Positions 11,583 through 52,091 of a DNA stretch of 64,000 nt are shown here, piece after piece. This stretch comes from Actinomadura barringtoniae. Lineage in GTDB: Bacteria; Actinomycetota; Actinomycetes; Streptosporangiales; Streptosporangiaceae. Every line of letters begins with the position of its first letter. The stretch's first letter is position 1. The position numbers and the translations under genes are program-made. Location of the stretch: positions 1 to 64,000 of the forward strand of contig NZ_JAGEOJ010000018.1 in assembly GCF_017573505.1 (NCBI RefSeq), read 5' to 3'. Below the pieces are notes generated by a model. The model was not told the DNA's origin, made no database searches, and saw only the letters and a program-made list of their open reading frames with translations.

Positions 11583-11801
11583 AGCCAGACGCACACGTTT
11601 AGTGATCATGAGAACACCCAGGTGGTAGCGGGAATGCGCCCCCGGTGACGGATCGTTCCGCCCCGCTTACTTTTGTAACGGGTTTCACAATTTTCGCAGC
11701 CGAATTGTGTCGCGTCTCGCAGTGTCGTCCCGATGATCGTCTCCGCTAGCGTCTCGGACACTCATCGGTGTGCCAATCGGGGCCTGACAGCGGAGCTGAC
11801 C

Positions 11802-12839
11802 ATGACACGTGAACGGTCCCGACTACGCCTGGCGGTGGCCGCGGCGACCGGAGCCGTCCTCGTGGGCACGGCGCTCTTCGCGCCCTCCACGGCGTACGGT
11901 TCCAGCGCGCTGCGCAAGGCCGACACCGGCGCCGCCATCACCGGCCAGAAGCGCATCGGCCCGCACATGTTCGACCTCACCGTGCGCTCCCCGTCGCTGC
12001 ACCAGACCGTGAAGGTCCGCGTCATCACGCCCACGGGCTGGTCGCGTACGGCGGCGCGGCGCTGGCCGGTGGTGTACGCCTACCACGGCGGCAACGACAA
12101 CTACCTCTCCTGGACGCGCAGCACCGACATCGAGGGTCTCGCGGCGCGCTGGAAGACGATGGTGGTGCTGCCCGAGGGCGGTACGAACGGGTCCTACACG
12201 GACTGGTTCAACTACGGCAAGGGCGGGACGCCCAGGTGGGAGACCTTCCACACCAAGGAGGTCATCCAGCTCATGGAGCGCAACTACCGCGCGGGCACCA
12301 ACCGTGCGGCCATGGGCATCTCCTCGGGCGCTCAGGGGGCCATCACCTATGCCGCACGCCACCGCGGCCTGTTCAAGTACGCGGCGTCCTTCAGCGGCAT
12401 CGTTCACCTGACCAAGCCGGGCATTCCCGCGATCCTCATGGCCGAGGGCCTGGCGTTCAACCCGACGCAGGACCCGTTCCGCATCTGGGGCAAGCCCGAC
12501 GACAACCTGCGCAACTGGGAGACCCACGACCCGTACGTCCTGGCGAAGAACCTGCGCGGCACCGGCCTCTACCTGTCGGCCGGAACGACGGGCAACCCGG
12601 GCCCGCTGGACCCGCCGTTCGTCGGCTGGGACTTCGTGAAGGCCCGCCTGGTCGGCGGCATCAGCGAGTCGGTCGCCGGTTCGACGAACGTCTCCCTCAT
12701 CGCGCGCCTCAAGCAGCTCAAGATCCCGGTGACCACGCACATCTACAAGAATGGCTGGCACCAGTGGGGCTACTGGATCCGCGAGATGCAGCGCGCCTGG
12801 CCGCTCATGATGAAGTCCATCGGAGCCAAGCGCGTCTGA
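11802..12839 (+). CDS. Secreted antigen-85/esterase-D-like alpha/beta hydrolase, copy 1
   Basis: This 345-residue protein has a signal peptide (MTRERSRLRLAVAAATGAV to about TAYGS). The hydrolase fold carries a GISSGAQGA nucleophile elbow (GxSxG) and a C-terminal His in NGWHQWGYW (about residue 320), arranged as in the antigen 85 family, where the equivalent His motif is HSWEYW. Ag85 proteins are extracytoplasmic acyltransferases, and relatives outside mycobacteria act as esterases. ATG 11802, preceded by CGGAG, is preferred over an upstream in-frame ATG because the signal peptide then begins correctly. It is paralogous to the protein at 39401. Substrate is not known. Confidence 0.85.
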   Translation: MTRERSRLRLAVAAATGAVLVGTALFAPSTAYGSSALRKADTGAAITGQKRIGPHMFDLTVRSPSLHQTVKVRVITPTGWSRTAARRWPVVYAYHGGNDNYLSWTRSTDIEGLAARWKTMVVLPEGGTNGSYTDWFNYGKGGTPRWETFHTKEVIQLMERNYRAGTNRAAMGISSGAQGAITYAARHRGLFKYAASFSGIVHLTKPGIPAILMAEGLAFNPTQDPFRIWGKPDDNLRNWETHDPYVLAKNLRGTGLYLSAGTTGNPGPLDPPFVGWDFVKARLVGGISESVAGSTNVSLIARLKQLKIPVTTHIYKNGWHQWGYWIREMQRAWPLMMKSIGAKRV

Positions 12840-34353: not shown

Positions 34354-34371
34354 TTGTCACCCGCGTGACAA
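34354..34371. promoter_or_regulatory. Operator TTGTCA-N6-TGACAA, copy upstream of the FAAL operon
   Basis: Six-base perfect arms (seven with the flanking C/G) flank CCCGCG, 159 bp before the FAAL start. The same palindrome with the same spacing occurs at 44066-44083 in front of the PKS. I saw no third copy in the window. The binding regulator is not identified. Confidence 0.75.
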
Positions 34372-34529
34372 AACGGGCGGCCCCTTATGTGGGCCGGAGC
34401 TAATAGCCCCTCATGCCTACCCTGCGGTAGCTTCACGCTGGCCGGGAGGCACCAGACCCTCGTCCGGCACCGCCCTCCACCTCCGCCCCTCCTGCCGCGA
34501 GGCCCCCTTCCCCCCGGGAGATTGATCAC

Positions 34530-36353
34530 ATGGCACTGGGCTCTCTGCTTCCCGAACTTCAGCCAGGCGGCACCAGCCGTACCCCGCTGATCGAGCGGGT
34601 CGCCAGGTGGGCCGCGGAGAAGCCGGAGGCGCCGGCGTTCACCTTCGTCGACTACTCCATGGACCCGTCCGGCACCAAGATCACGCTGGACTGGGCGGAG
34701 ACCGACCGGAGGGCCCGCGCGATGGCGGTGCGGCTGCGGGAGGCGGCCCAGCCCGGCGAACGGGCGGCGCTGCTGCTGCCGCAGGCGCACGAGTACATGA
34801 TGACCATGCTCGGCGCGATGTACTCGCACATCGTCGCGGTGCCGCTGTTCTCGCCGGACCAGCCGGGCCACGGCGAGCGCCTGGTCGGGGCCTACTCCGA
34901 CGCCGAGCCCGCGATCGTCGTCACGACCCGCAACTCGCTGCCGCACGTGGAGAAGTTCCTCGCCGACAACGACGTTCCGCAGCCCAAGGAGATCATCTTC
35001 GCCGAGGAGATCGACCCGGCGCTGGCGGCGTCCTGGCAGGACGAGCCGATCGACCCGGACGACCTGGCCTATCTCCAGTACACCTCCGGTTCGACGCGGC
35101 GCCCGGCCGGTGTGGAGATCACGCACGGCAACCTGGCCGTCAACGCGCGCCAGCTGTGGGCGGGCTGGGCCCCGGACAGGCCGAACCCCGAGCTGGTGAC
35201 CTGGCTGCCGCTGTTCCACGACATGGGCCTGATGTCGGCGATGGGGCTGCCGCTGGTCTACGGCGACCACGTGATCTACACCGCGCCGCTGTCGTTCCTC
35301 ATGCGGCCGCTGCGCTGGCTGCAGCTGATCTCCGAGTGCCCGAACGTCTACACCGCCGCGCCGAACTTCGCCTACGAGTACGTCGCCGAGCACGCCACCC
35401 CCGAGAAGGTCGCCGAGCTCGACCTCAGCGGGCTGGTCACCTGCCTGAACGGCGCCGAGCCGGTGCGGCCCTCGACGCTGAAGATGTTCACCGAGACGTT
35501 CGCCCCGGCCGGGTTCCGGGCGGGCGCGCACGCCCCGGCGTTCGGCCTGGCCGAGGCGACGGTGTTCGTCACCGCGGCCGCCGAGGACACGCCGCCCAGG
35601 GTCCTCATCGCCGACCGCGAGGCCCTCTCGCAGGGCGAGCTGCGCCTGGTCGACGCCCCCGCCGACGGCGCGGACGCCGCCGAGGGCGAGGCCGGCGCCC
35701 GGGTCACCAGCCTGGTCGCGTGCGGGCGGCCCGTCGGCCAGTACGTCGCGATCGTCGACACCGAGACCTCGGCGGAGCTGCCCGACGGCCAGGTCGGCGA
35801 GATCTGGGTGCACGGCCCGAACACCGCCCCCGGCTACTGGCGCAACTCCGAGCGCAGCCAGGACACCTTCGGCGGCGTGCTGGCCGAGCCCGGCGACCTC
35901 CCGGCCGGCCCGTGGATGAAGACCGGCGACTGCGGCCTGATCCACGAGGGCGAGCTGTACGTCACCGGCCGCATCAAGGACCTGATCATCGTCGACGGCC
36001 GCAACCACTACCCGCAGGACCTGGAGGTCACCACCCAGGAGGCGCACCCGGCGATCCGGCCCGACTTCGTCGCCGCGTTCGCCGTCCAGGGCGAGGAGAC
36101 CGAGCGCCTGGTCGTGGTCGCCGAGCGCAACCGGCGGGTGCCGCTCGCGCGCCTGGACCTGGACGAGGTCGAGAGCGCCGTGCGCGCCGCGGTGAACGTC
36201 GAGCACGAGATGAGCCTGCACGAGTTCCTGCTGGTCGAGCCGGGGGCGATCTCCCGTACGTCCAGCGGCAAGGTCGCCCGCGCGGCCACCCGCCAGCGCT
36301 ACGAGGTGGCGGACCTGGCGACGACGGAGGCACGCCTGGCCGGACGCAAGTAG
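34530..36353 (+). CDS. Fatty acyl-AMP ligase (FAAL), FadD32-like
   Basis: This 607-residue adenylating enzyme activates a fatty acid as acyl-AMP for transfer to a carrier protein rather than to CoA. The ATP/AMP motif YTSGSTRRPAGVEITHGN lies at about residues 184-201. WLPLFHDMGL, the AFGLAEATVF-type motif, KTGDCG, GRIKDLIIVDGRNHYPQDLE and a C-terminal SRTSSGK catalytic Lys region all match FAALs, notably FadD32 (about 630 residues). ATG 34530 follows CGGGAG. It is first in an apparent operon with MmpL and an Ag85-like esterase. Its likely partner is the N-terminal carrier domain of the PKS at 44193. Confidence 0.92.
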   Translation: MALGSLLPELQPGGTSRTPLIERVARWAAEKPEAPAFTFVDYSMDPSGTKITLDWAETDRRARAMAVRLREAAQPGERAALLLPQAHEYMMTMLGAMYSHIVAVPLFSPDQPGHGERLVGAYSDAEPAIVVTTRNSLPHVEKFLADNDVPQPKEIIFAEEIDPALAASWQDEPIDPDDLAYLQYTSGSTRRPAGVEITHGNLAVNARQLWAGWAPDRPNPELVTWLPLFHDMGLMSAMGLPLVYGDHVIYTAPLSFLMRPLRWLQLISECPNVYTAAPNFAYEYVAEHATPEKVAELDLSGLVTCLNGAEPVRPSTLKMFTETFAPAGFRAGAHAPAFGLAEATVFVTAAAEDTPPRVLIADREALSQGELRLVDAPADGADAAEGEAGARVTSLVACGRPVGQYVAIVDTETSAELPDGQVGEIWVHGPNTAPGYWRNSERSQDTFGGVLAEPGDLPAGPWMKTGDCGLIHEGELYVTGRIKDLIIVDGRNHYPQDLEVTTQEAHPAIRPDFVAAFAVQGEETERLVVVAERNRRVPLARLDLDEVESAVRAAVNVEHEMSLHEFLLVEPGAISRTSSGKVARAATRQRYEVADLATTEARLAGRK

Positions 36354-36435
36354 GGCGAAGGGCGCAAGCGGGCCCGATCGCTAGTAAGAAGGACGGGGCG
36401 GCCGCGACGGCGCGGCCGGAGGAACCAGGAGGATC

Positions 36436-39411
36436 ATGCTCGCGGGGCTGGGGCGTCTCATTCACAGACGACGCTGGATCAGCCTTGCGCTCATCCTGGT
36501 GACGACCGTGCTGGCCGGTGCCTGGGGCCTCGGCGTCTTCGCGCGGTTCAGCACCGAGGGCGGCTTCGACGACCCCAAGTCGTCCTCGTCCCTGGTGGCC
36601 CGGCTGGGCGCGACCTATTTCGGCAGCACCAACCCCGACGTCCTGGTCCTGTACCGCAGCGACACCATGACCGTGGACGACCCGCGTTACGAGCAGGCGG
36701 TCATCGGCACGGTCGCGCGGCTGCCCAAGGACAAGGTCGCCGAGCTCGCCTCCTACTGGTCGTTCGACGAGAAGGACGCCGCGCCGCTCGCCTCCCGTGA
36801 CAAGCACGCGACGTTCGTCTCGGTGAAGCTGGCGGGCAAGGACGACGCGGCCAAGGCCGAGAACTACAAGGCGATCAAGGACCGGCTGAACGCGCCGGGC
36901 CTGCAGACCAGGCTCGGCGGCAACGTCCCGCTCGGGCAGGAGTTCGCCACCCAGGTCGTCGCCGACATCGTGAACGCCGAGACGATCTCGATGCCGATCC
37001 TGCTGATCCTGCTGGTCCTGGTGTTCGGGGCGCTGACGGCGTCGGTGCTGCCGCTGATCGTGGCGCTGTTCTCGATCGTCGGCGGCCTGGCCGTGCTTCA
37101 CATGGTCACCTATCTCACCGACGTGACCTCGATGGCGCTCGAGGTCGTCACGATGATGGGCGTCGGTCTCGCGATCGACTATTCGCTCTTCATCGTCAGC
37201 AGATTCAGAGAAGAGCTGGCCAAGGGCATGGACGCCCGGGGCATCTCCCCGGGCAAACCATGGAAACAGGCGGGCACCAGACGGGATCGCAAGGCCGAGA
37301 AGCGGGCGTACCTCCGTGCGCTGAAGCCGGTCCGGCAGAGCGCGCTCGCCCACACGATGGCCACCGCCGGGCGGACGATCATGGTCTCCGGCATCACCGT
37401 CTCGGCGGCCCTGAGCGGCCTGCTGGTGTTCCCGCAGATGTTCCTGCGCACGATCGGGCTGGCCGGCATCTGCACCGTCCTCGTCGCGGTCTTCGGCGCG
37501 ATCGTGCTGCTGCCGACGATGCTCGCGCTGCTCGGCACCAAGGTCGAGTTCGGCCGGATGCCGTGGCGCCGCCCGAACTCGCGCCGCGTCCGCAAGGCCC
37601 GGCGCGACCCCGACAGCGGCTTCTGGCACGCGCTCGGGCACAGCGTCATGAAGCACCCGTTCCCCTACTTCGTCGTCGTCATCGGCATCCTCGGGGTGCT
37701 GTTCGTGCCGTTCCTGAACGTGCAGTTCGGCAGCGTCGACGCGCGCATCCTGCCGAAGGACAGCCCCACCCGGGCGGTGGTCGAGACCGTCAAGCGCGAC
37801 TTCCCGAACGGGTCGGCCGAGCCCATCGACGTGGTCATCTCCGGCGACCTCATCCCGCGCAACTGGCGGCCGGTGCGCAAGGGCGACAACATCCCGCCCT
37901 ACCTGGAGCAGTTCCGCAAGAAGCTCGCCGCGATGCCCGGCGTGACCGACGCCAAGTACACCGGCTACTCAGGCGACTACGGCGGCGTCCGCATCTCGGT
38001 CACCCACAAGTGGGAACCGATGGACGAGCACGCCCAGGATCTCGTCAAGGAGATCCGCGGGATGAGCCTCACCAAGAACGGCTACCCGATGCACATCGAC
38101 GTCGGGGGCAGTACCGCCGCGCAGATGGACCTCATGTCCAGCCTGATGCGCAGCCTGCCCAAGATGGCGGTGATCGTCGGGCTGGCCACGTTCTTCCTGC
38201 TCTTCATGTTCTTCGGCTCGATCGTGCTGCCGCTGAAGGCGATCGTGATGAACGTGCTGTCCATCGGCGCCTCGTTCGGCGTGATCGTCTGGGGGTTCCA
38301 GTACGGGCATCTGGCCGGGATCCTGAACTTCACGCCCACCGGTGGCGTCGAGGCCACCAGCATGATCCTCATCCTCGCCGTGGTGTTCGGCCTGTCGATG
38401 GACTACGAGGTCTTCCTGCTCAGCCGCATCCGCGAGGAGTGGGACAAGCACCGCGACAACCGTGCCGCCGTGGCCCGGGGCATGCAGCACACCGGCAGCA
38501 TCATCACCAGCGCCGCGCTGCTGTTCCTGGTGGTCATCGCCGCGTTCGGCATGGCCGGGATCACCTCGGTGAAGCTCATCGGCGTCGGCATGTTCGTGGC
38601 CGTCGTGGTGGACGCGGCCCTGGTGCGGTCGCTGCTCGTTCCGGCGACGATGCGGTTCATGGGCAACGCCAACTGGTGGCTGCCCGGACCGCTGGCCGGC
38701 CTGCACTCCCGCATGGACCTGCGCGAACGCGAGGACATGCCCAGCCGGCACATCATCGCGCCGAGCCGTCTGCCCGAGGAGCAGCCCTACCCGTACGCGA
38801 TGCAGTGGGAAGAGGCCGGGCCGGACGAGGAGGAAGTGCCCTCGGCGTTCCGTACGACCGCGAACGGCCGGCACGCCGCACCGGCGGCCCCAGCACCGGC
38901 GGCGCCCGCGCCCTTCGCTTCCGCTCCCACGTCGGCGTTCCCGGAGAACATCCAGTTCCAGCCGGGCGCAGCCGCTCCCGGCCCGCACCAGCGACCGTCG
39001 CAGCCGTACCCGCAGCAGGCGCAGCCGTACCCGCAGCCGCAGCCGAACGGGAACGGTGCACAGCCGGGCTTCGACCGTCGGCCGAACGACGGCCGGTTCC
39101 TTCCGACGGGTGGACACCACCCACCCGCACCGGGCGCGCCAAACGTGCCGCCCGCAACGATCTCGCAACGTTTCCCTGACCGGCCCGAGGCGCCTTCGCG
39201 GGCGCCGCGAGCCATGACCCGACCGCCTACCTCGGCGGATCACCCCATGCAGCCCTCGGCCACATCCCCTCGAGCCCCTTGGGCACCGTGGTCGAACGGG
39301 CAGCCCCAACCCAGCCCCACGCACACCACCCGTACCAAACGTGAGATAGTTCCGAATCCCGACGGTTCTGGGTGGCGCTGGAGCACTGTGGAGGACAACG
39401 ATGTCGATTGA
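36436..39411 (+). CDS. MmpL-family RND lipid transporter, MmpL3-like layout
   Basis: This 991-residue transporter has two MMPL halves, each with an extracytoplasmic loop domain and a helix bundle. The proton-relay Asp-Tyr pairs are present at D248-Y249 (VGLAIDYSLFIVSRFREE) and D656-Y657 (GLSMDYEVFLLSRIREEW). About 240 C-terminal residues form a Pro/Gln/Ala-rich cytoplasmic tail, as in MmpL3. MmpL proteins export complex lipids such as trehalose monomycolate. ATG 36436 follows CAGGAGG, 82 bp after the FAAL stop. The gene overlaps the Ag85-like gene by 11 bp, so activation, export and surface acyl transfer appear to be co-expressed. Confidence 0.92.
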   Translation: MLAGLGRLIHRRRWISLALILVTTVLAGAWGLGVFARFSTEGGFDDPKSSSSLVARLGATYFGSTNPDVLVLYRSDTMTVDDPRYEQAVIGTVARLPKDKVAELASYWSFDEKDAAPLASRDKHATFVSVKLAGKDDAAKAENYKAIKDRLNAPGLQTRLGGNVPLGQEFATQVVADIVNAETISMPILLILLVLVFGALTASVLPLIVALFSIVGGLAVLHMVTYLTDVTSMALEVVTMMGVGLAIDYSLFIVSRFREELAKGMDARGISPGKPWKQAGTRRDRKAEKRAYLRALKPVRQSALAHTMATAGRTIMVSGITVSAALSGLLVFPQMFLRTIGLAGICTVLVAVFGAIVLLPTMLALLGTKVEFGRMPWRRPNSRRVRKARRDPDSGFWHALGHSVMKHPFPYFVVVIGILGVLFVPFLNVQFGSVDARILPKDSPTRAVVETVKRDFPNGSAEPIDVVISGDLIPRNWRPVRKGDNIPPYLEQFRKKLAAMPGVTDAKYTGYSGDYGGVRISVTHKWEPMDEHAQDLVKEIRGMSLTKNGYPMHIDVGGSTAAQMDLMSSLMRSLPKMAVIVGLATFFLLFMFFGSIVLPLKAIVMNVLSIGASFGVIVWGFQYGHLAGILNFTPTGGVEATSMILILAVVFGLSMDYEVFLLSRIREEWDKHRDNRAAVARGMQHTGSIITSAALLFLVVIAAFGMAGITSVKLIGVGMFVAVVVDAALVRSLLVPATMRFMGNANWWLPGPLAGLHSRMDLREREDMPSRHIIAPSRLPEEQPYPYAMQWEEAGPDEEEVPSAFRTTANGRHAAPAAPAPAAPAPFASAPTSAFPENIQFQPGAAAPGPHQRPSQPYPQQAQPYPQPQPNGNGAQPGFDRRPNDGRFLPTGGHHPPAPGAPNVPPATISQRFPDRPEAPSRAPRAMTRPPTSADHPMQPSATSPRAPWAPWSNGQPQPSPTHTTRTKREIVPNPDGSGWRWSTVEDNDVD

Positions 39412-40435
39412 GTCACGTCGCCGCGGCGCGCGACGGGCGGGAGCCGTGCTCGGCGCGGCCGCCCTCGGGGTGACCGTGCTCCCCTTGGGCGTGGCCGCCC
39501 CGGCGGAGGCCGCCGGGTTCAAGAAAGCCGACGGCGGTGCCTATATCAAGTCGTATCGCTGGTTGAACAAGGGCAAGACCGCGTTCGACTTCGTCGTGCA
39601 GTCCAAGGCCCTCGGGTCCGCCCAGCACGTGCGCATCCTGCTTCCCAAGGGCTGGAAGAAGAACTCGCGGCAGAGCTGGCCGACCGTTTACGCCTACCAC
39701 GGCGGCAACGACAACTGGACCTCCTGGACGCGCAAGAGCAGCACCGACATCGAGGCCGTGTCCCGCAAGTGGGGCGTCATGGTGGTCATGCCCGAGGGCG
39801 CCAACGGCTCGTACACCAACTGGTACAACTACGGGAAGGGCGGCCGCCCGCGCTGGGAGGACTTCCACCTGCGCGAGGTCGTCCAGCTGGTGCAGCGCAA
39901 CTTCCACGCCGGCGGTTCCCGCGCGGCGATCGGCGTGTCCTCGGGCGCGCAGGGAGCGTGCACGTACGCCGGACGCCGTCCTGGCTTCTTCAAGTTCGCG
40001 GCCTGCTACAGCGGCATCCTGAACATGACGGCGCCCGGCATCCCGGCGCTGCTGATGTACACCAACACCGGTAACGGCAACGACCCCTACGCCATCTGGG
40101 GACGGCCGATCCTCGACGATGCCGTCTGGAGAGAGCACAACCCGATCGACCTGCTGCCCCGGATGCGCGGCACGAAGCTGTACGTGTCGTCGGGCACCAC
40201 CGGCCAGCGCGGCCCGCTCGACTCGCCGAACACCGCCCCCTGGGACATCGGCTACCTGAGCGAGAAGGCGATCGGCCCGACGGTCAAGGACTACGTGGCC
40301 CGGGCCCGCCAGCTGCACGTGCCGATCACCGCGCACATCTACGGCAACGGCCGGCACTCCTGGCCGTACTGGAAGCGCGAGATGCACACCTCCTGGCCGC
40401 TGATCATGAAGGCGATCGGCGCCCGGCGCGCCTGA
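39401..40435 (+). CDS. Secreted antigen-85-like acyltransferase/esterase, copy 2
   Basis: This 344-residue exported protein has a signal peptide (residues about 1-38, ending APAEAA). The nucleophile elbow GVSSGAQGA (Ser180) and the His in NGRHSWPYWKREM (about His319) resemble the HSWEYW segment of mycobacterial Ag85. Also conserved are AYHGGNDNW and an acid-loop candidate LYVSSGTTG. Ag85 enzymes transfer mycolate at the cell surface; here the acyl substrate is predicted, not known. Its start lies inside the end of the MmpL gene. It is a paralogue of 11802-12839, sharing AYHGGNDN, FNYGKGG-type and GISSGAQGA segments. Confidence 0.87.
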   Translation: MSIESRRRGARRAGAVLGAAALGVTVLPLGVAAPAEAAGFKKADGGAYIKSYRWLNKGKTAFDFVVQSKALGSAQHVRILLPKGWKKNSRQSWPTVYAYHGGNDNWTSWTRKSSTDIEAVSRKWGVMVVMPEGANGSYTNWYNYGKGGRPRWEDFHLREVVQLVQRNFHAGGSRAAIGVSSGAQGACTYAGRRPGFFKFAACYSGILNMTAPGIPALLMYTNTGNGNDPYAIWGRPILDDAVWREHNPIDLLPRMRGTKLYVSSGTTGQRGPLDSPNTAPWDIGYLSEKAIGPTVKDYVARARQLHVPITAHIYGNGRHSWPYWKREMHTSWPLIMKAIGARRA

Positions 40436-40472
40436 CGGCCGGCGTTCGCGCCCGATATCAACAACCTCGCAT

Positions 40473-40500
40473 GATGCCCCGGCCGATCGGCCGGGGCATC
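40473..40500. terminator. Bidirectional terminator palindrome
   Basis: A perfect 28-bp palindrome, GATGCCCCGGCCGA followed by its complement, lies between the convergent Ag85-like gene and glycosyltransferase gene and reaches into the latter's stop codon. Confidence 0.8.
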
Positions 40501-41749
40501 AGCCGTTTCGGAGGTCCTCCAGAAGGGCGCAGGCCTTGGCCACCCCGTCCTCGGCGGAGATCCGGCGCCCCACCTCGGCCGCGCGCTCGGCGATGTCCTG
40601 CGACCCGACGGCCTGCCGTACGGCCCGTGCCAGGCGCGGCACCGTCATCGACGCGAAGGGCACCGGCTTGGGCCCGGCCCCCAGGGCCGTCACACGTTCG
40701 CCCCAGTAGGGCTGATCGCCGAAGAACGGCGTGATGACCGAGGGAACTCCGGCCCGCAGCCCTGCCGCCGTGGTTCCTGCGCCGCCATGGTGAACGACCG
40801 CCGCCATGCGGGGGAACAGCCACGAGTGAGGAACGTCCCTCACCGCGAAGACACGCTCGTCAGAGGTCTCCGGGTCGCCCTGCACGATCCCGCGTACCCC
40901 TGCCAGCCTCAGGGCGGTCCGCACCACGCGGTCCGTCATCGCGGGGTCCTTGGGGCGCATGCTCCCGAAGCCCACGTACACAGGCGCCGTTCCAGCAGCC
41001 AGGAAGTTCTCAAGTTCCTTGGGCGGCTGCCAAGCAGGCTCGTCCAGGAACCAGTAGCCGGTCAGGTGCACATGTGAGGGCCAGTCCGAGGGACGTGGCA
41101 CCACGGCGGGGCTGAAGCAGGCCAGCACCGGCCGCCGCTCGTTCCGCACCCTGCGCATCGGCCCGCGCAGCGAAAAGGCCTCCAGCCCAAGCTCGTTCCG
41201 GCGCCAGGGGTTGATGAACGGCCGGGACAACTGCCACGCGACCTGGTCGATGGCCATGAACGATGCCCGGTTGGCCCACGGCCCCAGGGCACGCGCCTGC
41301 GGAACGAACGGATGCGGGAACGCTCCCGTGGGCTCGCTCGGCTGGAAGTGAATCAGCGCCCAGGGAATCCCCAGATGCTCCCCGATGTGCTGCGGCAGGA
41401 ACCCGAGCGTCGGCCCGAGTAGCAGGTCGGCGCCCTTACAGGCGTCCAGGCACTCGGCCAAGAGCCGTTCGGCCATGGGCCCGATGATCCGCCGGAACCC
41501 GCCGAGGAACTTGACCGGATTCCTTCCGCCCGCCAGCAGTTCCTGCCCGGCCTCAGAATCCAGGATCTCGGTCGGGTCCGCCGTGAGCGGCGCCAACTCC
41601 AGCCCGGCCGCACTCACCAGCCCCTCGTACCGGCTGCTGGCCACGAGCCGCACCCGGTCGCCGCGCAGGGCCAGTGCCTGCCCCAACGCGATGCAGGGCT
41701 GGATGTCGCCGCGCGACCCCGCGGCGAAGATCACGATTCTGCGGCTCAC
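40499..41749 (-). CDS. GT1-family glycosyltransferase (UGT/GPL-type)
   Basis: This 416-residue GT-B enzyme starts at GTG 41749 and overlaps the MFS stop as GTGA. The N-terminal segment RIVIFAAGSRGDIQPCIALGQAL and the C-terminal donor signature VVHHGGAGTTAAGLRAGVPSVITPFFGDQPYWGERV place it with UGT-like glycosyltransferases. These include mycobacterial glycopeptidolipid rhamnosyl- and glucosyltransferases and sterol glucosyltransferases. The acceptor is probably hydrophobic. In this cluster a hydroxyl of the predicted beta-hydroxy lipid is a plausible acceptor, which is inference. It is co-transcribed with the transporter and divergent from the PKS. Confidence 0.87.
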   Translation of the reverse strand: MSRRIVIFAAGSRGDIQPCIALGQALALRGDRVRLVASSRYEGLVSAAGLELAPLTADPTEILDSEAGQELLAGGRNPVKFLGGFRRIIGPMAERLLAECLDACKGADLLLGPTLGFLPQHIGEHLGIPWALIHFQPSEPTGAFPHPFVPQARALGPWANRASFMAIDQVAWQLSRPFINPWRRNELGLEAFSLRGPMRRVRNERRPVLACFSPAVVPRPSDWPSHVHLTGYWFLDEPAWQPPKELENFLAAGTAPVYVGFGSMRPKDPAMTDRVVRTALRLAGVRGIVQGDPETSDERVFAVRDVPHSWLFPRMAAVVHHGGAGTTAAGLRAGVPSVITPFFGDQPYWGERVTALGAGPKPVPFASMTVPRLARAVRQAVGSQDIAERAAEVGRRISAEDGVAKACALLEDLRNG

Positions 41750-43902: not shown

Positions 43903-44065
43903 CTGACTGCGCGGCGAGGGCCCCGAAACCCGGGGAGAACCGCCGCTTCCCCCTATTAACGAGAGTAGATATTGTTACGATTCGTTGGCATCCAGTTACA
44001 ACCCCTGACTCGCAGCCAAGGGATCCTCAACTATCCCATCAGGCCACATTGGTTACTAGTGGGTC

Positions 44066-44083
44066 TTGTCATCACCGTGACAA
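44066..44083. promoter_or_regulatory. Operator TTGTCA-N6-TGACAA, copy in the MFS/PKS divergent promoter
   Basis: Six-base perfect arms (seven with flanking C/G) flank TCACCG, 110 bp before the PKS start and 164 bp before the MFS start. It is identical in arms and spacing to the site at 34354-34371 and could control both divergent transcripts. Confidence 0.75.
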
Positions 44084-44192
44084 GTGAGCTGCGGGAAAAT
44101 GTGGGCTGCGTGCGCATCGTGATGCGGTCACGGTAGGACAAAGTGGTCCCTCCTGCTTCGAACGATCCTGGTTCATTGGGGGAACCCCGCGT

Positions 44193-47100
44193 ATGCAGAC
44201 GAATGATCGTTCCGGAGCCGCGCTCGACGAGACGCGGATCAGCGAGGATTCGATTCGTCGGTACCTGATCGACCAGATCGCGCGTCGCTCCAGGATCACG
44301 CCGGCGGAGGTCGACCCCGACCGTCCGCTCGAAGAGTTCGGACTGGCGTCCCGCGACGCCGTCGCGATCGCGGGCGAGCTCGAGCAGCTGCTCGGCCGCG
44401 CCCTTCCCGCCACGCTCGTCTGGGAACACCCGACCATCAACAAGCTGTCGGTCGCCCTCGTCGGCGGCGGCACCAAGACGGTCGTGCCCCCGGCGCCGGT
44501 GCCGGTCGCCGAGACGCCGATGCGGCCGGACGAGCCGATCGCGGTCGTCGGGATCGGCTGCCGCTTCCCGGGCGGCGAACGCGACCTGACCGGCCCCGAG
44601 GACTACTGGCGCTTCCTCACCGGGCGCGGTGACGCGATCCGCGAGGTGCCGGACGGCCGCTGGGACCCGTTCGACGACGGTTCTCCCGAGGTCGCCGACC
44701 GGCTGGCCAAGACCACGCGCCTCGGCGGCTTCCTGGACGACGTCGCCGAGTTCGACGCCCAGTTCTTCGGCATCACCCCGCGCGAGGCCGCGGTCATGGA
44801 CCCGCAGCAGCGCCTGGTGCTGGAGGTCGCCTGGGAGGCGTTCGAGCACGCCGGCATCGGCCCCGCCTCGCTGCGCGGCAGCCGCACGGGCGTGTTCGTC
44901 GGCGTCTCGGCCCCGGAGTACGCGGCGTTCACCGCCTCCGACTTCGCCTCGCTGGAGGCGTTCACCGCGACCGGCGCGGCGCTCAGCATCATCGCCAACC
45001 GGCTGTCCTACCTGCTCGACCTGCGCGGCCCGAGCATGATCGTGGACACCGCCTGCTCGTCGTCGCTGGTCTCCACGCACCTGGCGGTCCAGGCGCTGCG
45101 CGACGGCCAGGCCGACGTGGCGCTCGCGGGCGGCGTCAACCTGCTGCTCTCGCCGACGGTCACGATGACCTTCGACATGGCGGGCGGCACGGCCGCCGAC
45201 GGGCACTGCAAGCCGTTCGACGCCTCGGCCGACGGCATGGTCCGCGCCGAGGGCTGCGGCGCCGTCGTCCTCAAGCGGCTCTCGGACGCCGAACGCGACG
45301 GCGACCGGATTCTCGCCCTGGTCAAGGGCTCGGGCGTGAACTCCGACGGCCGTTCCAACGGCCTGGTCGCGCCCAACTCCGAGGCCCAGAAGGAGCTGCT
45401 GCGCGCGGTCTACGCCTCCGCCGGCATCGACCCGCGCGAGGTCGACTACATCGAGGCGCACGGCACCGGCACGTTCCTGGGCGACCCGATCGAGGCCAAG
45501 GCGCTCGGCGAGACCCTCGGGTCGGGCGCGGGCCGGGAGAGCGGCGAGCCGCTGCTGCTCGGCTCGGCCAAGTCCAACCTCGGCCACATGGAGTCGGCGG
45601 CGGGCGTCGCCGGGCTCATCAAGACCGTGCTGGCCCTGCACCACGGCACGATCCCGCCGTCCAACCACTACAAGGAGCCGAACCCGCACATCCCGTTCGA
45701 CGACCTGCGTCTCGCGGTCGTCGCGGAGGAGACGCCGTGGCCCGACCGTGGCCACCCCGCCCGCGCGGGCGTCTCGGGGTTCGGGTTCGGCGGTACGAAC
45801 GCGCACGTGATCCTGGAGGCGCCGCCGTCCCAGGAGACCAAGACCTCGCCGACGGCCGTGCGGACGTTCCCGCTGTCGGACACCGCCGACGACCGGGTCC
45901 GCGACAACGCCGCCGCCCTCGCCGGGTGGGTGCAGGCCCGCGATGACGTGTCGCTCGCCGACCTCGCGCAGACCCTGCACCGGCGCGGCGGCCGTGGCCG
46001 TTCGCGTGCGGCCGTGGCGGCACGTGACCGCGCCGGGCTGGTGGACGCTCTGAACGCGCTCGCCGAAGGCCGTCCCCACCAGGGCGTCGTCACCGGCACC
46101 GCGCTGGGCATGCCCGGCAAGCCGGTCTGGGTCTTCTCCGGCTACGGCGCGCAGCGCGCGGGCATGGCGCAGCGGCTCCTTGAGGAGGAGCCCGCGTTCG
46201 CCGAGGCCATCGACGACATCGACGCGCTGTTCGCCGAGGAGGGCGGCCCCGAGCTGTGGGCGCTCCTTGAGGACGGCGAGAAGCCGACCGAGCTGACCGC
46301 CACGATGCCGGTCCTGTTCGCGATCCAGGTCGCGCTCGCCCGCACGTGGAAGGCGTACGGCATCACCCCCGGCGCCGTGATCGGCCACTCGATGGGCGAG
46401 GTCGCCGCGGCGGTCGTCGCGGGCGCGATCACCCTCGAGGACGGCGTCAAGATCATGTGCCGCCGGTCCCGGCTGCTCACTCGGATCGTCGGCGGCGGCG
46501 CGATGGCCGTGCTGGGCGCGTCCGCGGCCGAAGTCGAGGCGCTGGCGCACGACCTGCCCGAGGTCTACGCGGCCGTGCACTCCTCGCCGAAGCAGACCGT
46601 GGTCACCGGCGACGCCGACCAGATCGCCACACTGATGGAGCGGGCCGAGGCCGAGGGCCGGCTGGCCCGCAAGGTCCAGGCCGAGGGCGCCGGGCACTCG
46701 CCGCAGGTCGATCCGCTGCTGGACGACCTGCGCGAGCTCCTCGCCGAGGTCGGGCACGAACGCGGCACCCCGCTCGCGGGCGGCATCCGGCTCTACACGA
46801 CCGCGCTGGACGACCCGCGAGCCCTCACCGACGAGTCGCTCCTGGACGCCGGCTACTGGGTCAAGAACCTGCGCAACCCGGTGCGGCTCGCCGACACCGT
46901 CGAGGCCGCCGCCGAGGACGGGTTCCGCGCGTTCGTCGAGATCAACGCGCACCCGATCCTGTCCCACGCCGTCGGCGAGACGCTGGACGGCAGCGGCGCG
47001 CTGGTCACCCACACCCTGAAGCGCGCGCGCAAGGGCGAGGAGACCGACGACACCCTGACCTTCCACGCCCAGCTGGCCGCGCTCGCCGCGAACGGCCTGC

Positions 47101-50100
47101 CCGCCGTCGCCCCGGGCGACGGCGGCGTGATCGACGCGCCGCTGCCCGCCTGGCGGCACGAACGGCACTGGGTCGACACCTCCAGGCGCAACGCCGGCGG
47201 CCGGGACGAGCACCCGCTGCTGGGCGCGCACGTCGAGCTGCCCGGCGAGGACCGGCACGCCTGGCGCGCCGACGTCGGCACCGAGGCGCAGCGCTGGTTC
47301 GAGGGCGCCAAGGTCCACGGCCTGCCGGTCCTGCCGGTCGCCGCGTTCGCCGAGATGGCGCTCGCCGCCGGGGCCGAGGTGCTCGGCGGCGACGCCGTGC
47401 GCGTCAACAGCCTGTGGATGGAGCGGCCGCTCGCGCTCGCCGACCACACCACGGTCACCACCACGTTCACCGAGTCCGACCAGCGGGTCGAGATCCACGC
47501 GCGGACGCCCGCCGGGACCTGGACCCGGCTGGCCAGCGCCGACGTCGGCGACGATCACCGTGGCCCGGCCGTGCCGCTGGCCGGTGCCGCGACCGACGTG
47601 GCCGCCGCCGAACGCGGCAGCCGCCACTACCGGCTCCACCCCGAGGTCCTCGACCGGGCCCTGGCCGTCCTCTACGCCGACGCGGGCGAGGGGACCTGGC
47701 AGGCCGAGACGGTCGGCAGCCTGCGCGTCTACGGGCCGACGCACCGCGGCGGGCACGTCCGCACCGAGGTCGTCCGGGACGACGAGGGCACCGTGGGATC
47801 GGTCCAGATCCTCGGCCCCGACGGCGAGATCCTGCTGGACGCCACCGGCATCGTGCTGCGCCGGGTCGAGCGTTCCGAGGTGCCGGTGCCGCTCGCGGAC
47901 AAGCTCGTCGAGCTGGTCTGGGACGAGACCGAGGCGCCCGAGCCGACGCTCACCGAGAGCGGCGACTGGCTGCTGCTCGCCGATGACGACGACGCGCTCG
48001 CCGGTGCCGTCTCCGCCGACCTGGAGGGACGCGGCCACCACGTCGCCCGCCGCCGCCACACCGACCCGGCCCTCGACGAGGTGCCCACCGGCGTGGTGTT
48101 CGTCCCGTCCGCCGACCTTGTGGACGAGAGCCTGGTCCTGGCCGTCGTCGGGATCGCGAACGCGCTGCCCGACGGCACCCGGCTGTGGATCGCCACCCGC
48201 AAGGCGCTGCCCGTGCTGGACGGCGAGGCGGGCGAGGCGAGCCAGGGCTTCGTGCGGGCGCTGACCCGCGTGCTGTCGTTCGAACGGACCGTCCTGCACG
48301 CGACCCTCGTGGACGTCGACCGGCCCGCCGACCTGGTCACCGAGCTGCTCGCGAACGGCGACGCACGCGAGGTCGCCTACCGTGGCGGCGTCCGCCACGT
48401 CGCCCGCCTCGACCAGGCCGCGCTGGACATGCCCGCCAAGCCCGGCCGCATCGTGCGGCGCGGCGGCGCGTACGTGATCACCGGCGGCTACGGCGGCATC
48501 GGGCTGGTCACCGCCCGCCTGCTCGCCGAGCGCGGCGCCGGGCGGATCGTGCTGTCGGGCCGCAGCGGCCCGGACGCCGACGCCGAGAAGGTCATCGCCA
48601 GGCTCCGCGAGAACGGCGTGCACGTCGGCGTCGTCCTCGGCGACATCGCCGAGCCGGGCGTCGCCGAACGCCTCGTCGAGGTCGCCCGCGAGGGCGGCCG
48701 GCGGCTGTGCGGCGTCGTGCACGGCGCGGGCGCGATCGACGACAGGCTGATCGTCGACCTCGGCGCGGAGGATCTGCACAGGGTGTGGACGGCCAAGGTC
48801 GAGGGCGCCCGGCAGCTCAGCCAGGCCACCTGGGACATCGACCTCGACTGGTTCGTCATGCACTCCTCGGCCGCGGCCCTGGTGGGCTCGCCCGGCCAGG
48901 CCGCCTACGCCGCCGCCAACGCAGCGATCGACGCGCTGATCTCCCACCGCCGCGCGAACGGGCGGGTCGGCACCACGATCAACTGGGGCACCTGGTCGCA
49001 GGTCGGCGGCGCCGCCGACCTGAAGGTCGCGGTCATCGAGGCGATCAGCCCGGCCGAGGGCGCCGAGGCGCTGGAGGCGCTGCTGTCGGAGGGCCGCACC
49101 GCCGCCGGTGTGCTGCGGTTCGACCCGGCCGCCGCCGTGAGCCTCTTCCCCGAGATCAAGAACATGCCGTACTTCGCCTCGCTGACCGCCGCCGCGGGCG
49201 ACGCGGCGGAGGCCGACGGCGGCGACTGGCCCGGCATCGACGCGATCCGCGAGCTCGACCCGGCCGAGGCCAGGCAGCGCATCGCCGCGCAGGTGCGGTG
49301 GCGGATCGCGACCGTGCTGGGCTTCGATCCCGAACGGCTCGACCCCGCCGTCCCGCTGACCGATCTCGGCCTCGACTCGCTCGTGGCCGTGCGGATCAAG
49401 AGCGGGGTGGAACACGACCTGGGCCTGACCGTTCCGGCAGCCGTGCTGCTCAAGGGCGCCAGCGTGAACGCCTTCGAGGAGTGGGCGGCCGAGGAGCTTG
49501 GCCTGTCCGGGGCGCCCGCGCCGTCCACGGGTGTGAGCGCGGTCTCCAACGCCGAGTCCGGCTACGTGATGCCGCGCGACGCCGCCGAACGGCTCGCCGT
49601 GCGGATCATCGAGGACGTCCTCGGGCTCGACCGGGTCGGCGTCACCGCCGACTTCTTCACCGACCTCGGCGGGCACGACCATCAGGCCGACCAGGTCGTC
49701 GCGCAGGTCGCGGCCGAGCTGGGCGGTGAGGTCACGCGCAGCGAGCTGTTCGCGACGCCGACCGCCGAGCACGTCGCCGAGTTCCTGCGGGCCGCCGACG
49801 AGGAGGCCGCCCGGCAGACCGTGCGGCCGCTGAAGGCCACCGGCACCCGGCGGCCGATCTTCATCGCGCACCCGGCGGGCGGCACCACCGCCTGCTACCG
49901 GCAGCTGATCGACCTGCTCGGCGCCGACCAGCCGGTGTACGGCCTCGAACGGTTCGACGACGCGCCCTCGGTGGAGGAACGCGCCGCCCGCTACGTCGAG
50001 GAGCTGCTGGTCGCCCAGCCCGAAGGGGCCTTCCGGCTCGGCGGCTGGTCGTTCGGCGCCGTCCTGGCCTACGAGACCGCCCGCCGGCTCACCGCCGCAG

Positions 50101-50729
50101 GGCGCGAGGTCGAGTTCGTCGCGCTCTTCGACGGCGGCCTGCCGCTGCCGGTCGAGGACGAGTCCGACACCCTCGCCCGCCGCTTCTCCGCGTTCACCGA
50201 CTACATCAACCAGACCTACGGCCTGGAGATCAGACTCACTTACGAGGAGCTGTCGGGGCTGGAGGAGGAGGCCCAGTTCGCGCTGGTGATGGAACGGGCG
50301 GCGCCGCTCGCCGACCTCATCCCGCCGGCCGCGCTGCACCACCAGCTGACCTCGCACCAGGACACCCGGTCCCTTGAGGCATATCAGCCCAAAACCTACG
50401 ACGGCCGCGTGATCCTTTACTACGCTCCCGAAGAGACGCCGTGGGCCGTGAAGGACGCCCGCTACGTCCTGGACGGCACGAACGGCTTCGGGCCGCTGTG
50501 CCCCGCCCTGGAGAAGGTCACCATCCCCGGGGTGCACCACCTGAACCTGCTGGACCCGCCCGGTGTGGAGCTGCTGGCCGCGCACCTGGAGGACCAGCTC
50601 GCCGCACGTTCGCACGACGCACGTTCCGCAGCCGCACATCCCGCGGACGCACGTTCCGCGGACGAGGTACCGGAGGCCGCTGGCGCGACCGAGGCCGGCC
50701 TCTCCGTTTCCGCCCCCCAGGCCCCCTGA
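44193..50729 (+). CDS. Type I PKS, Pks13-like N-terminus: ACP-KS-AT-DH(inactive)-KR-ACP-carrier(inactive)-TE
   Basis: This 2178-residue single-module synthase starts with a carrier domain (about 15-92) whose FGLASRDAVAIA motif (Ser53) matches the Pks13 type loaded by FadD32. Next is KS (113-545; Cys288 in DTACSSS, His423, His465). AT (640-950) has Ser733 in GHSMG and selectivity motif GAGH at 832-835. DH (1005-1225) has Ala1039 where AxxxGxxxxP should begin with His, although Asp1154 is kept. KR (1240-1615) has GGYGGIG, Ser1558/1559, Tyr1572, Asn1576 and IDD, suggesting B type. ACP2 (1695-1770) has GLDSL Ser1729. A further carrier-like domain (1797-1868) has GGHDH, Asp instead of Ser. TE (1885-2135) has GWSFG Ser1953, Asp1980 and His2115/2116. 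Predicted chemistry is one condensation and one ketoreduction with no dehydration, then release. ATG 44193 gives an intact first domain. Confidence 0.95.
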   Translation: MQTNDRSGAALDETRISEDSIRRYLIDQIARRSRITPAEVDPDRPLEEFGLASRDAVAIAGELEQLLGRALPATLVWEHPTINKLSVALVGGGTKTVVPPAPVPVAETPMRPDEPIAVVGIGCRFPGGERDLTGPEDYWRFLTGRGDAIREVPDGRWDPFDDGSPEVADRLAKTTRLGGFLDDVAEFDAQFFGITPREAAVMDPQQRLVLEVAWEAFEHAGIGPASLRGSRTGVFVGVSAPEYAAFTASDFASLEAFTATGAALSIIANRLSYLLDLRGPSMIVDTACSSSLVSTHLAVQALRDGQADVALAGGVNLLLSPTVTMTFDMAGGTAADGHCKPFDASADGMVRAEGCGAVVLKRLSDAERDGDRILALVKGSGVNSDGRSNGLVAPNSEAQKELLRAVYASAGIDPREVDYIEAHGTGTFLGDPIEAKALGETLGSGAGRESGEPLLLGSAKSNLGHMESAAGVAGLIKTVLALHHGTIPPSNHYKEPNPHIPFDDLRLAVVAEETPWPDRGHPARAGVSGFGFGGTNAHVILEAPPSQETKTSPTAVRTFPLSDTADDRVRDNAAALAGWVQARDDVSLADLAQTLHRRGGRGRSRAAVAARDRAGLVDALNALAEGRPHQGVVTGTALGMPGKPVWVFSGYGAQRAGMAQRLLEEEPAFAEAIDDIDALFAEEGGPELWALLEDGEKPTELTATMPVLFAIQVALARTWKAYGITPGAVIGHSMGEVAAAVVAGAITLEDGVKIMCRRSRLLTRIVGGGAMAVLGASAAEVEALAHDLPEVYAAVHSSPKQTVVTGDADQIATLMERAEAEGRLARKVQAEGAGHSPQVDPLLDDLRELLAEVGHERGTPLAGGIRLYTTALDDPRALTDESLLDAGYWVKNLRNPVRLADTVEAAAEDGFRAFVEINAHPILSHAVGETLDGSGALVTHTLKRARKGEETDDTLTFHAQLAALAANGLPAVAPGDGGVIDAPLPAWRHERHWVDTSRRNAGGRDEHPLLGAHVELPGEDRHAWRADVGTEAQRWFEGAKVHGLPVLPVAAFAEMALAAGAEVLGGDAVRVNSLWMERPLALADHTTVTTTFTESDQRVEIHARTPAGTWTRLASADVGDDHRGPAVPLAGAATDVAAAERGSRHYRLHPEVLDRALAVLYADAGEGTWQAETVGSLRVYGPTHRGGHVRTEVVRDDEGTVGSVQILGPDGEILLDATGIVLRRVERSEVPVPLADKLVELVWDETEAPEPTLTESGDWLLLADDDDALAGAVSADLEGRGHHVARRRHTDPALDEVPTGVVFVPSADLVDESLVLAVVGIANALPDGTRLWIATRKALPVLDGEAGEASQGFVRALTRVLSFERTVLHATLVDVDRPADLVTELLANGDAREVAYRGGVRHVARLDQAALDMPAKPGRIVRRGGAYVITGGYGGIGLVTARLLAERGAGRIVLSGRSGPDADAEKVIARLRENGVHVGVVLGDIAEPGVAERLVEVAREGGRRLCGVVHGAGAIDDRLIVDLGAEDLHRVWTAKVEGARQLSQATWDIDLDWFVMHSSAAALVGSPGQAAYAAANAAIDALISHRRANGRVGTTINWGTWSQVGGAADLKVAVIEAISPAEGAEALEALLSEGRTAAGVLRFDPAAAVSLFPEIKNMPYFASLTAAAGDAAEADGGDWPGIDAIRELDPAEARQRIAAQVRWRIATVLGFDPERLDPAVPLTDLGLDSLVAVRIKSGVEHDLGLTVPAAVLLKGASVNAFEEWAAEELGLSGAPAPSTGVSAVSNAESGYVMPRDAAERLAVRIIEDVLGLDRVGVTADFFTDLGGHDHQADQVVAQVAAELGGEVTRSELFATPTAEHVAEFLRAADEEAARQTVRPLKATGTRRPIFIAHPAGGTTACYRQLIDLLGADQPVYGLERFDDAPSVEERAARYVEELLVAQPEGAFRLGGWSFGAVLAYETARRLTAAGREVEFVALFDGGLPLPVEDESDTLARRFSAFTDYINQTYGLEIRLTYEELSGLEEEAQFALVMERAAPLADLIPPAALHHQLTSHQDTRSLEAYQPKTYDGRVILYYAPEETPWAVKDARYVLDGTNGFGPLCPALEKVTIPGVHHLNLLDPPGVELLAAHLEDQLAARSHDARSAAAHPADARSADEVPEAAGATEAGLSVSAPQAP

Positions 50730-50771
50730 CCTCAGGGGCCCGTTCCACACCCCGCTCGACGGAGGAGATCA

Positions 50772-52091
50772 ATGTCCGACGACCTGCTCGAAGCCGTCCG
50801 GTCCGGCGCTACCGAGAAGGAGCTGCTGGACTGCGAACTGCCCACTAGCTATCGCGCCTCATACATCCTCAAGGACGAGGTGGGCATCTTCGAGGGCGAG
50901 ACCGACAAGGACGTGCGCCGGTCGATGCACTACGGCGAGGTCGAGATGCCCGAGCTCGCCCCCGACGAGGTCGTCGTCGCGGTCATGTCCGCCGCGATCA
51001 ACTTCAACACGGTGTGGTCGGCGATCTTCGAGCCCGTCCCGACGTTCGCGTTCCTGGAGAAGTTCGGCCGGCAGGGCTGGTACGGCGCGCGCCACAACCT
51101 GCCCTGGCACCAGCTCGGCTCGGACGGGTCCGGCGTGGTCGTGCGGGTCGGCTCCGGCGTCAAGAGCTGGAAGGTCGGCGACAAGGTCGTGCTGTCCCCG
51201 TCGTACGTCGACGAGGAGGACCACGGCTCCTACGACGACGGCATGATGAGCGAGACCCAGCTGGCCTGGGGCTTCGAGACCAACTTCGGCGCGCTCGGCG
51301 AGTACTGCATCGCCAAGGCCAACCAGCTCATCCGCAAGCCCGGGCACCTCACCTGGGAGGAGGCGGGCTCCAACACGCTGTGCGCGGCCACCGCGTACCG
51401 CATGCTGGTCGGCCCGCACGGCGCGCAGATGAAGCAGGGCGACGTCGTGCTGATCTGGGGCGCCACCGGCGGCCTCGGCTCGTACGCCACGCAGCTGGTC
51501 AAGAACGGCGGCGGCATCCCGGTCGCGGTGGTCTCCTCCGAGGAGAAGGCCGAGATCGTCCGGGCGCAGGGCTGCGACGCCGTCATCAACCGCAACGAGC
51601 TGAACCTCGGTGAGGGCGGCCTGCGGCACCCCAAGGCGGGCCGGGTCCTCGGCGAGGCGATCCGCGCGCTGGTCGGCGAGGACCCCGGGATCGTGTTCGA
51701 GTACCTGGGCCGGGAGACGTTCGGCGCCTCGGTCTACGTCGCCAAGCGCGGCGGCAAGATCATCACGTGCGGGTCGTCGACCGGCTTCAAGCACGAGTAC
51801 GACAACCGCTTCCTGTGGATGCGGCTGAAGAGCATCATCGGCTCGCACGGCTTCAACTACCACGAGGCCGTCCAGATGAACCGGCTCATCTCGCTCGGCA
51901 TGATCCACCCGACGCTGTCCACGGTGTTCCCGCTGGAGCAGGCCGGGGACGCCACCCGCGCGGTGCAGACCAACCAGCACATCGGCAAGGTCGCCGTGCT
52001 GTGCGGCGCCACCGGCGAGGGCCAGGGCATCGACGACCCGGCGCTGCGCGAGCGCATCGGCGAGGAGAAGTTCCACCTCTACCGCCGCTGA
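50772..52091 (+). CDS. ccr: Crotonyl-CoA carboxylase/reductase (CCR) family
   Basis: This 439-residue medium-chain reductase-fold enzyme reductively carboxylates 2-enoyl-CoA with NADPH and CO2 to give alkylmalonyl-CoA, such as ethylmalonyl-CoA. The NADPH motif GATGGLGSYATQL is present. CO2-pocket residues known from characterised CCRs appear kept: Asn79 in INFNTVW, Phe168-Glu169 in WGFETNFG, and a His in IIGSHGFNY (His359). These argue for a carboxylating enzyme rather than a plain enoyl reductase. It starts at ATG 50772 after GGAGGAG and lies 42 bp behind the PKS stop, so it probably supplies the PKS extender unit. Long-chain preference cannot be judged from sequence alone. Confidence 0.93.
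   Translation: MSDDLLEAVRSGATEKELLDCELPTSYRASYILKDEVGIFEGETDKDVRRSMHYGEVEMPELAPDEVVVAVMSAAINFNTVWSAIFEPVPTFAFLEKFGRQGWYGARHNLPWHQLGSDGSGVVVRVGSGVKSWKVGDKVVLSPSYVDEEDHGSYDDGMMSETQLAWGFETNFGALGEYCIAKANQLIRKPGHLTWEEAGSNTLCAATAYRMLVGPHGAQMKQGDVVLIWGATGGLGSYATQLVKNGGGIPVAVVSSEEKAEIVRAQGCDAVINRNELNLGEGGLRHPKAGRVLGEAIRALVGEDPGIVFEYLGRETFGASVYVAKRGGKIITCGSSTGFKHEYDNRFLWMRLKSIIGSHGFNYHEAVQMNRLISLGMIHPTLSTVFPLEQAGDATRAVQTNQHIGKVAVLCGATGEGQGIDDPALRERIGEEKFHLYRR

Follow-up and report, generated by a model that had tools for sequence, protein, structure and literature searches.

The window analyzed here is a stretch of 64,000 nucleotides at the start of a contig (C10) of Actinomadura barringtoniae (genome 11.7 Mb; GC content of the window 71%), and our subject is a cluster of seven genes within it. 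An earlier note, made from the letters of the sequence, had likened this cluster to the machinery that assembles mycolic acids, which are waxy lipids made by the tuberculosis group, and had proposed that a reductive carboxylase takes the place of the acyl-CoA carboxylase. The seven long open reading frames (ORFs) at 34530–52091 are all intact and encode, as that note had listed, a fatty-acyl-AMP ligase (FAAL), an MmpL transporter with Asp-Tyr pairs, an Ag85-type esterase, a GT1-type glycosyltransferase, a major facilitator superfamily (MFS) transporter, a polyketide synthase (PKS) and an enoyl-CoA carboxylase/reductase (CCR). The FAAL, MmpL, esterase, PKS and CCR genes are on the + strand, with GT1 and MFS on the − strand. 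The gap between FAAL and MmpL is 82 bases, the MmpL and esterase genes share 11 bases where the esterase gene starts, and PKS and CCR are 42 bases apart. The nearest named loci are from Actinomadura and Spirillospora.

Genes and domains of the locus

The PKS (44193–50729, + strand, 2178 aa) is a single-module type I enzyme. Pfam assignment gave the order acyl carrier protein (ACP), ketosynthase (KS), acyltransferase (AT), dehydratase (DH), ketoreductase (KR), ACP, ACP and thioesterase (TE), all on the + strand. The string ACP-KS-AT-DH-KR-ACP-X-TE of the earlier note was right in its order; to it we add that the catalytic His of the DH is missing, which would leave this domain inactive, and that X is a third ACP-like domain lacking the Ser. 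The N-terminal ACP (44250–44468) carries Ser53 in EFGLASRDAV, a motif of the same type as that of Pks13 (e.g., ELGLSSRDAV). The KS (44532–45827; PF00109/PF02801) has Cys288, His423 and His465, the AT (46110–47042) has Ser733 and a specificity motif, GAGH, at residues 832–835, and the KR (48450–49028; PF08659) has Lys1535, Ser1559, Tyr1572 and Asn1576. The second ACP (49275–49508; PF00550) carries Ser1729 (DLGLDSLVA) and the TE (49842–50600) has Ser1953, Asp1980 and His2116. Catalytic residues are in place in all of these domains, the exceptions being the DH (47199–47876), where residue 1039 is Ala, and the third ACP-like domain (49569–49808), with LGGHDH at the Ser site. No enoyl reductase (ER) domain was found in this PKS by the Pfam search.

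Both losses were seen throughout the family. At the position of the DH His, 36 aligned family rows showed Ala (11), Leu (10), a gap (7), Arg (3), Thr (2), Val (2) or Asn (1) and never His, which was likewise absent from the 8 rows of a further alignment (A1). The third ACP had Ser in none of the 30 family rows with letters there. The AT motif read EGAGH in 32 of the 36 rows and EAAGH in one, with gaps in three, and the Pks13 rows shown had GASH or GAGH; the DH and AT motifs are taken here at their presumed meaning. A one-to-one tie between AT motif and CCR was ruled out, as GAGH also occurs in Pks13 rows and in rows from loci with an AccD-type carboxyltransferase. Among individual relatives, the PKS of Actinomadura litoris (locus L098, 10001–16021) has His and Gly for the KR Tyr and Asn and is missing the third ACP, suggesting that this copy may be decaying or may give a keto product. 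In two Actinocorallia loci (L081, L085) the DH stretch for the catalytic His is deleted, not substituted.

The domain set of Pks13 (N-terminal ACP, KS, AT, ACP, Ser-less ACP3, TE) is present in the window PKS, with DH and KR as extras. The best solved match of the TE was the Pks13 TE (151 bits; next kind 71). The earlier description of a Pks13-like N-terminal ACP and C-terminal TE was borne out at both ends. Passages of a structure paper describe, just ahead of the TE of Pks13, an ACP3 that lacks the Ser and has no assigned function (PMC9900942). Against the Pks13 equivalog NF040607 the window PKS scored 1271 bits, short of the cut-off of 2100 bits, and true Pks13 loci in the same search scored 2583–2836 bits.

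The CCR (50772–52091, + strand, 439 aa) belongs to the CCR family, with 498.6 bits against TIGR01751 (cut-off 378.55), and is the single match in its own genome at E 1e-20. Its best solved relative was the octenoyl-CoA CCR CinF (545 bits), with crotonyl CCRs at 469 bits and below. The residue at the CinF Gly362 position, which we take to set chain length, is Gly in 67/67 cluster CCR ORFs (some fetched twice) and Phe in crotonyl CCRs. Taken together, these features may point to a substrate chain longer than crotonyl. One report has a related change, AntE V350G, broadening the range of substrates (PMC6164871), at a position that may or may not be the Gly362 column.

The FAAL (34530–36353, + strand, 607 aa; PF00501, PF23024) had FadD32 as its best solved relative (433 bits), followed by FadD23 (389 bits), and scored 543 bits against the NCBIfam FadD32 model (NF038339), below the cut-off of 975. 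A second close FAAL paralogue (53%) is encoded elsewhere in the same genome (C23:470846-472561), and a different genus of the family has an equivalent of it.

The MmpL transporter (36436–39411, + strand, 991 aa; PF03176) carries its Asp-Tyr pairs at 248/249 and 656/657. Among solved proteins it was closest to MmpL3 (327 bits; MmpL5 98), and it scored 427 bits on the NCBIfam MmpL3 model (NF052608; cut-off 1400), on which a real MmpL3 scored 1653. In an MmpL tree the window family and the MmpL3 clade fell in a 21-row group (SH-aLRT 94), within which the window family was not the sister of MmpL3.

The esterase (39401–40435, + strand, 344 aa), of the Ag85/mycoloyltransferase superfamily, has an apparent signal peptide at its N-terminus. 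Its best solved relatives by sequence were PS1/MytA, then Cmt1 and Ag85C. In an AlphaFold model (pLDDT 84.2) it has the alpha/beta-hydrolase fold and Ser-Glu-His triad of mycoloyltransferases, and the 25 best Foldseek matches in the PDB were all mycoloyltransferase/Ag85 chains. The triad (Ser180, Glu288, His319) is invariant across 21 sequences. There were 10 matches to this esterase family in the genome in total, and a second Ag85-superfamily esterase, 53% identical to that of the cluster, lies in the window at 11733–12839 (+ strand).

The GT1 ORF (40499–41872, − strand, 457 aa; PF06722, PF03033) shows similarity to its relatives only from near residue 42, and its true start is therefore probably near 41750. 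The MFS transporter (41746–43902, − strand, 718 aa) is of the DHA2/EmrB type (TIGR00711, 232 bits; cut-off 230.2) and has a long proline-rich C-terminal tail. Adjoining the CCR gene is an ORF at 52200–53882 (− strand) whose translation we take to resemble the cytochrome bc1 b subunit.

Conservation and ancestry

Gene order was compared across 13 relative loci around an orthologous esterase (L039–L051), eight of which had all seven genes in the same order, more than chance would explain. The other five comprised three that stop short where the contig or region ends (L040, L046, L048), one with an insertion (L050) and one in which the MmpL gene was missed in the scan (L043) and was recovered in a genome-wide MmpL search. 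A TE profile built from 15 sequences was then used on a genus sample of 65 genomes and a class sample of 394 genomes. The PKS was found in 59/65 genus genomes at 235 bits or more, the next best score being 139. The class sample gave 61 places at 242 bits or more (next 133), many of them true Pks13 of the mycolata family (f6); all 26 places outside that family were taken for further analysis, and five within it, with 20-kb flanks.

MmpL orthologues (at least 69% identity; in one genome in two pieces) were present in the 59 PKS-positive genus genomes, and CCR orthologues (at least 81%) in 58/65 genomes, the exception among the PKS-positive ones being a genome with a truncated TE hit (G044). All three genes were missing from the same six genomes, in which CCRs reached 53–58% in four and MmpLs 48–50% in three. 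The esterase family, which has up to a dozen copies per genome, had a match at E 2e-92 or better in 53/53 PKS-positive genomes sampled; of the six genomes without the PKS, four had none, one had a single weaker match and one had four. The locus is a conserved unit that is near-core in Actinomadura and its relatives, and the conservation expected from the earlier note was found.

To place the PKS, trees were built from KS sequences. In the first, one group of 56 rows (SH-aLRT 99) took in the full set of 19 Pks13 rows, those from Thermomonosporaceae and 20 of the 21 FAAL-PKS rows. A second tree, to which mycobacterial PKSs with an N-terminal ACP were added, and in which 12 long-branch or odd KS rows of the first were left out and modular and Pks13 rows thinned, gave a corresponding 57-row group (SH-aLRT 99). 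In both trees the group stood apart from modular KSs, which ruled out an ordinary macrolide module and agreed with the earlier note. The FAAL tree grouped cluster FAALs, Thermomonosporaceae rows, FadD32 and three other FAALs (34 rows, SH-aLRT 95). In the AccD tree, 21 cluster rows grouped with seven mycolata AccD4 rows at 92/85, below the strict support mark; the window's own genome had three AccD matches, none of them in the AccD4 clade.

Judged by these trees, the locus is a distant relative of fadD32-pks13-accD4. The earlier note had called it a parallel system, and this part of its account did not hold: the shared ancestry of FAAL, KS and AccD makes it rather a divergent homologue.

CCR and AccD across related loci

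We compared the carboxylating enzymes of 112 loci whose PKS has N-terminal ACP, KS, AT and TE, reduced to 106 by removing near-identical KSs. This left out truncated PKSs (e.g., L084, L090, L112, L113, L116, L128), TE-less PKSs (L125, L138), L186 (no N-terminal ACP detected; it has AccD) and one further set of loci. Of the 106 non-redundant loci, 57 had a CCR and 38 an AccD (21 in mycolata, 17 in others), 11 had neither and none had both, "neither" meaning no carboxylase within the DNA examined (L094 ends shortly after the PKS). For example, in Amycolatopsis an AccD-type carboxyltransferase is encoded directly 3′ of the PKS, and in Streptomyces cylindrosporus one lies before the FAAL gene, beside a PKS without DH-KR. 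This mutual exclusion is the strongest support for the proposal, made in the earlier note, that the CCR replaces the acyl-CoA carboxylase, and suggests that one enzyme stands in for the other.

The state of the DH followed the same division. Its catalytic His was absent in 57/57 CCR loci and present in 7/7 KR-containing AccD loci (outside mycolata, 10 AccD loci were without DH-KR), as would be expected if the beta-hydroxyl is kept in the products of CCR loci; it was also present in 9/11 loci with neither carboxylase. GT1 was found in 45/57 CCR loci, in 0/17 AccD loci outside mycolata and in 2/11 with neither; for the esterase the counts were 23/57, 16/17 and 9/11. CCR loci fell in three parts of the KS tree, namely Thermomonosporaceae with genera of the same family, Streptomyces, and locus L189, with neither the branching order nor the number of swaps fixed by the tree.

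Several loci in this set deserve mention in their own right. Ten Streptomyces loci (L119, L121–L123, L126, L172–L175, L185) have the arrangement AccD-FAAL-PKS-esterase with a PKS of Pks13 architecture (ACP-KS-AT-ACP-TE); to our knowledge, Streptomyces is not known for mycolic acids. A single genome (G312) holds two Pks13-type loci, L183 and L184, one with AccD and the other without a carboxylase in the DNA examined. L189 (G354, same family), a locus of the CCR type, has FAAL, MmpL and esterase genes but no GT1, and its KS stands by itself on a long branch.

Proposed pathway, alternatives and known systems

These results support the interpretation of the earlier note, and we think it probable that the locus represents a version of the mycolate condensation machinery that depends on a CCR, with one Claisen step, KR reduction, TE release, export and Ag85-like transfer. 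By homology, the FAAL would adenylate a fatty acid and load it onto the N-terminal ACP of the PKS. The CCR would reductively carboxylate a 2-enoyl-CoA, putatively longer than crotonyl-CoA, to an alkylmalonyl-CoA, from which the AT would place an alkylmalonyl unit on the second ACP, and the KS would carry out a single decarboxylative Claisen condensation. The internal KR would then form a beta-hydroxyl, which would survive because the DH is predicted to be dead. A Pks13-type TE would pass the alpha-alkyl beta-hydroxy acyl chain to a putative sugar acceptor or to water, the MmpL would export the product and the Ag85-like enzyme would transfer the acyl group outside the membrane. In the least certain step, GT1 and MFS may modify or export a glycosylated form. 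In mycobacteria, as stated in passages of the structure paper, reduction of the keto group falls to a separate enzyme, CmrA, and follows release to trehalose (PMC9900942); here the KR would reduce it on the synthase.

Several observations weigh against this account. Against solved structures the whole PKS matched Mas (958 bits) ahead of Pks13 (893) and DEBS (713), and its lead for Pks13 among NCBIfam models was narrow (1271 bits; PKS_plus_SDR 1240, Pks2 1100). In the KS trees the Pks13 rows stay together on a long branch, with no special sister relationship to the window family; the FAAL-PKS fragment L128 falls outside the KS group, and three mycobacterial TE-less PKSs with an N-terminal ACP fall inside it, together with L125 and L138 (four other such mycobacterial PKSs lie outside). 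Since TE-less synthases share the group, KS alone is no marker of mycolate-type synthases, and KS kinship as proof of mycolate function was ruled out. Two non-MmpL3 MmpLs scored 387 and 442 bits on the MmpL3 model, much like the window protein, and with the tree placement this meant that MmpL3 orthology was not upheld. An in-cluster esterase in only 23 of the 57 CCR loci (several with short flanks) likewise did not uphold the idea that the operon always includes the esterase; further copies of its family are found elsewhere in the genomes. The six genomes without the cluster may be a single lineage, and their joint absences may therefore be one co-loss. Finally, parts of one report describe Actinomadura as lacking mycolic acids (PMC8631618), and the product, like its acceptor, export and surface transfer, is a prediction from the genes.

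The best surviving alternative, which we regard as unlikely, is a secreted specialised metabolite: a glycosylated branched lipid (surfactant or antibiotic) leaving through the MFS transporter, with GT1 decorating or masking it and the esterase acting in tailoring or hydrolysis rather than in acyl transfer at the envelope. A GT1 and a drug-efflux-type MFS are built into the cluster, GT1 accompanies most CCR loci and none of the AccD loci outside mycolata, and the distribution outside the genus is patchy, most Streptomyces in the class sample being without such a locus. Presence in 59/65 genus genomes would, however, be unusual for a metabolite of that kind, and the whole Ag85-like family is missing in four of the six genomes that lack the PKS.

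Much less probable is an iterative synthase like Mas or Pks2, whose product would be a fatty acid with several branches, destined for an acyl-glycolipid. Loci of the sulfolipid type are also built of FAAL, PKS, MmpL and esterase, and this counts for the idea along with the whole-chain match to Mas and the 1100 bits for Pks2; but the PKS has no detected ER, the DH His is missing in all family rows examined, and the N-terminal ACP and TE are of Pks13 type. Least credible of all is that the CCR, although the only one found in the genome, provides ethylmalonyl-CoA more generally, to metabolism or to other polyketides, and lies here by chance, as its gene lies directly 3′ of the PKS gene, its orthologue is in 58/59 genus genomes that have the PKS and in none of the six that do not, relatives have AccD instead, and it has Gly at the chain-length position.

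Extending the CCR-dependent condensation account beyond the window, we tentatively propose, at somewhat lower confidence than for the pathway itself, that Actinomadura and its relatives make, export and surface-attach their own alpha-alkyl beta-hydroxy acids by means of the CCR, the built-in reductase and Ag85-like transferases, that routine mycolate tests miss these lipids, and that relatives in Streptomyces, Amycolatopsis and Frankia have counterparts of this machinery that use AccD. If so, mycolate-type envelope lipids would not be confined to the mycolic-acid order, and the locus of the tuberculosis group would belong, as a single branch, to a larger family spread over the actinobacteria. 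The loci found here open the origin of mycolic acids to comparison, through intermediates that still exist: Pks13-like synthases that are short and go with AccD, others that are longer and keep the DH intact, and those of CCR loci, in which the DH is dead. They predict, testably, a class of lipids so far unreported for a genus said to be free of mycolic acids, and are a source of natural enzymes of the Pks13 type whose extender units are supplied differently. Among titles and abstracts listed from the open-licence PMC literature we found no account of such a locus outside mycolic-acid bacteria, subscription papers and further preprints not being covered. Passages of the structure paper hold that only producers of mycolic acids have the fadD32-pks13-accD4 locus (PMC9900942), and as regards homologues of that locus, those found here contradict it.

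Among known systems, the closest is fadD32-pks13-accD4 with MmpL3 and Ag85. Both have a FAAL beside a single-module PKS with N-terminal ACP, KS-AT, ACP, Ser-less ACP3 and TE, an adjoining dedicated carboxylating enzyme, and MmpL and Ag85-superfamily genes, and the KS, the FAAL and the AccD of AccD-type relatives fall in common clades. The window differs in having CCR for AccD4, a dead DH and a KR inserted in the PKS, and added GT1 and MFS genes, and its host genus has no reported mycolic acids. Because its proteins also fall below the curated Pks13, FadD32 and MmpL3 cut-offs, the cluster is best regarded as a variant form of the Pks13-type condensation system and not as a member of those families. 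AccD-type Pks13-like loci of Streptomyces, Amycolatopsis and Frankia relatives share FAAL, a Pks13-type PKS and an Ag85-like esterase, and differ in having AccD and not CCR, in an intact DH His or no DH-KR, and in the absence of GT1 (0/17). Mycobacterial Mas/Pks2 loci (mycocerosic acid, sulfolipid) also combine FAAL, PKS, MmpL and esterase, and Mas is the best whole-chain match; unlike these, the window has a CCR and a PKS without ER, with a dead DH, an N-terminal ACP and a C-terminal TE. Medium-chain CCRs of the CinF type are the best solved match of the window CCR and share its Gly at the Gly362 position, but they are linked to modular macrolide-type PKSs, whereas the window CCR is linked to a PKS of the Pks13 type.

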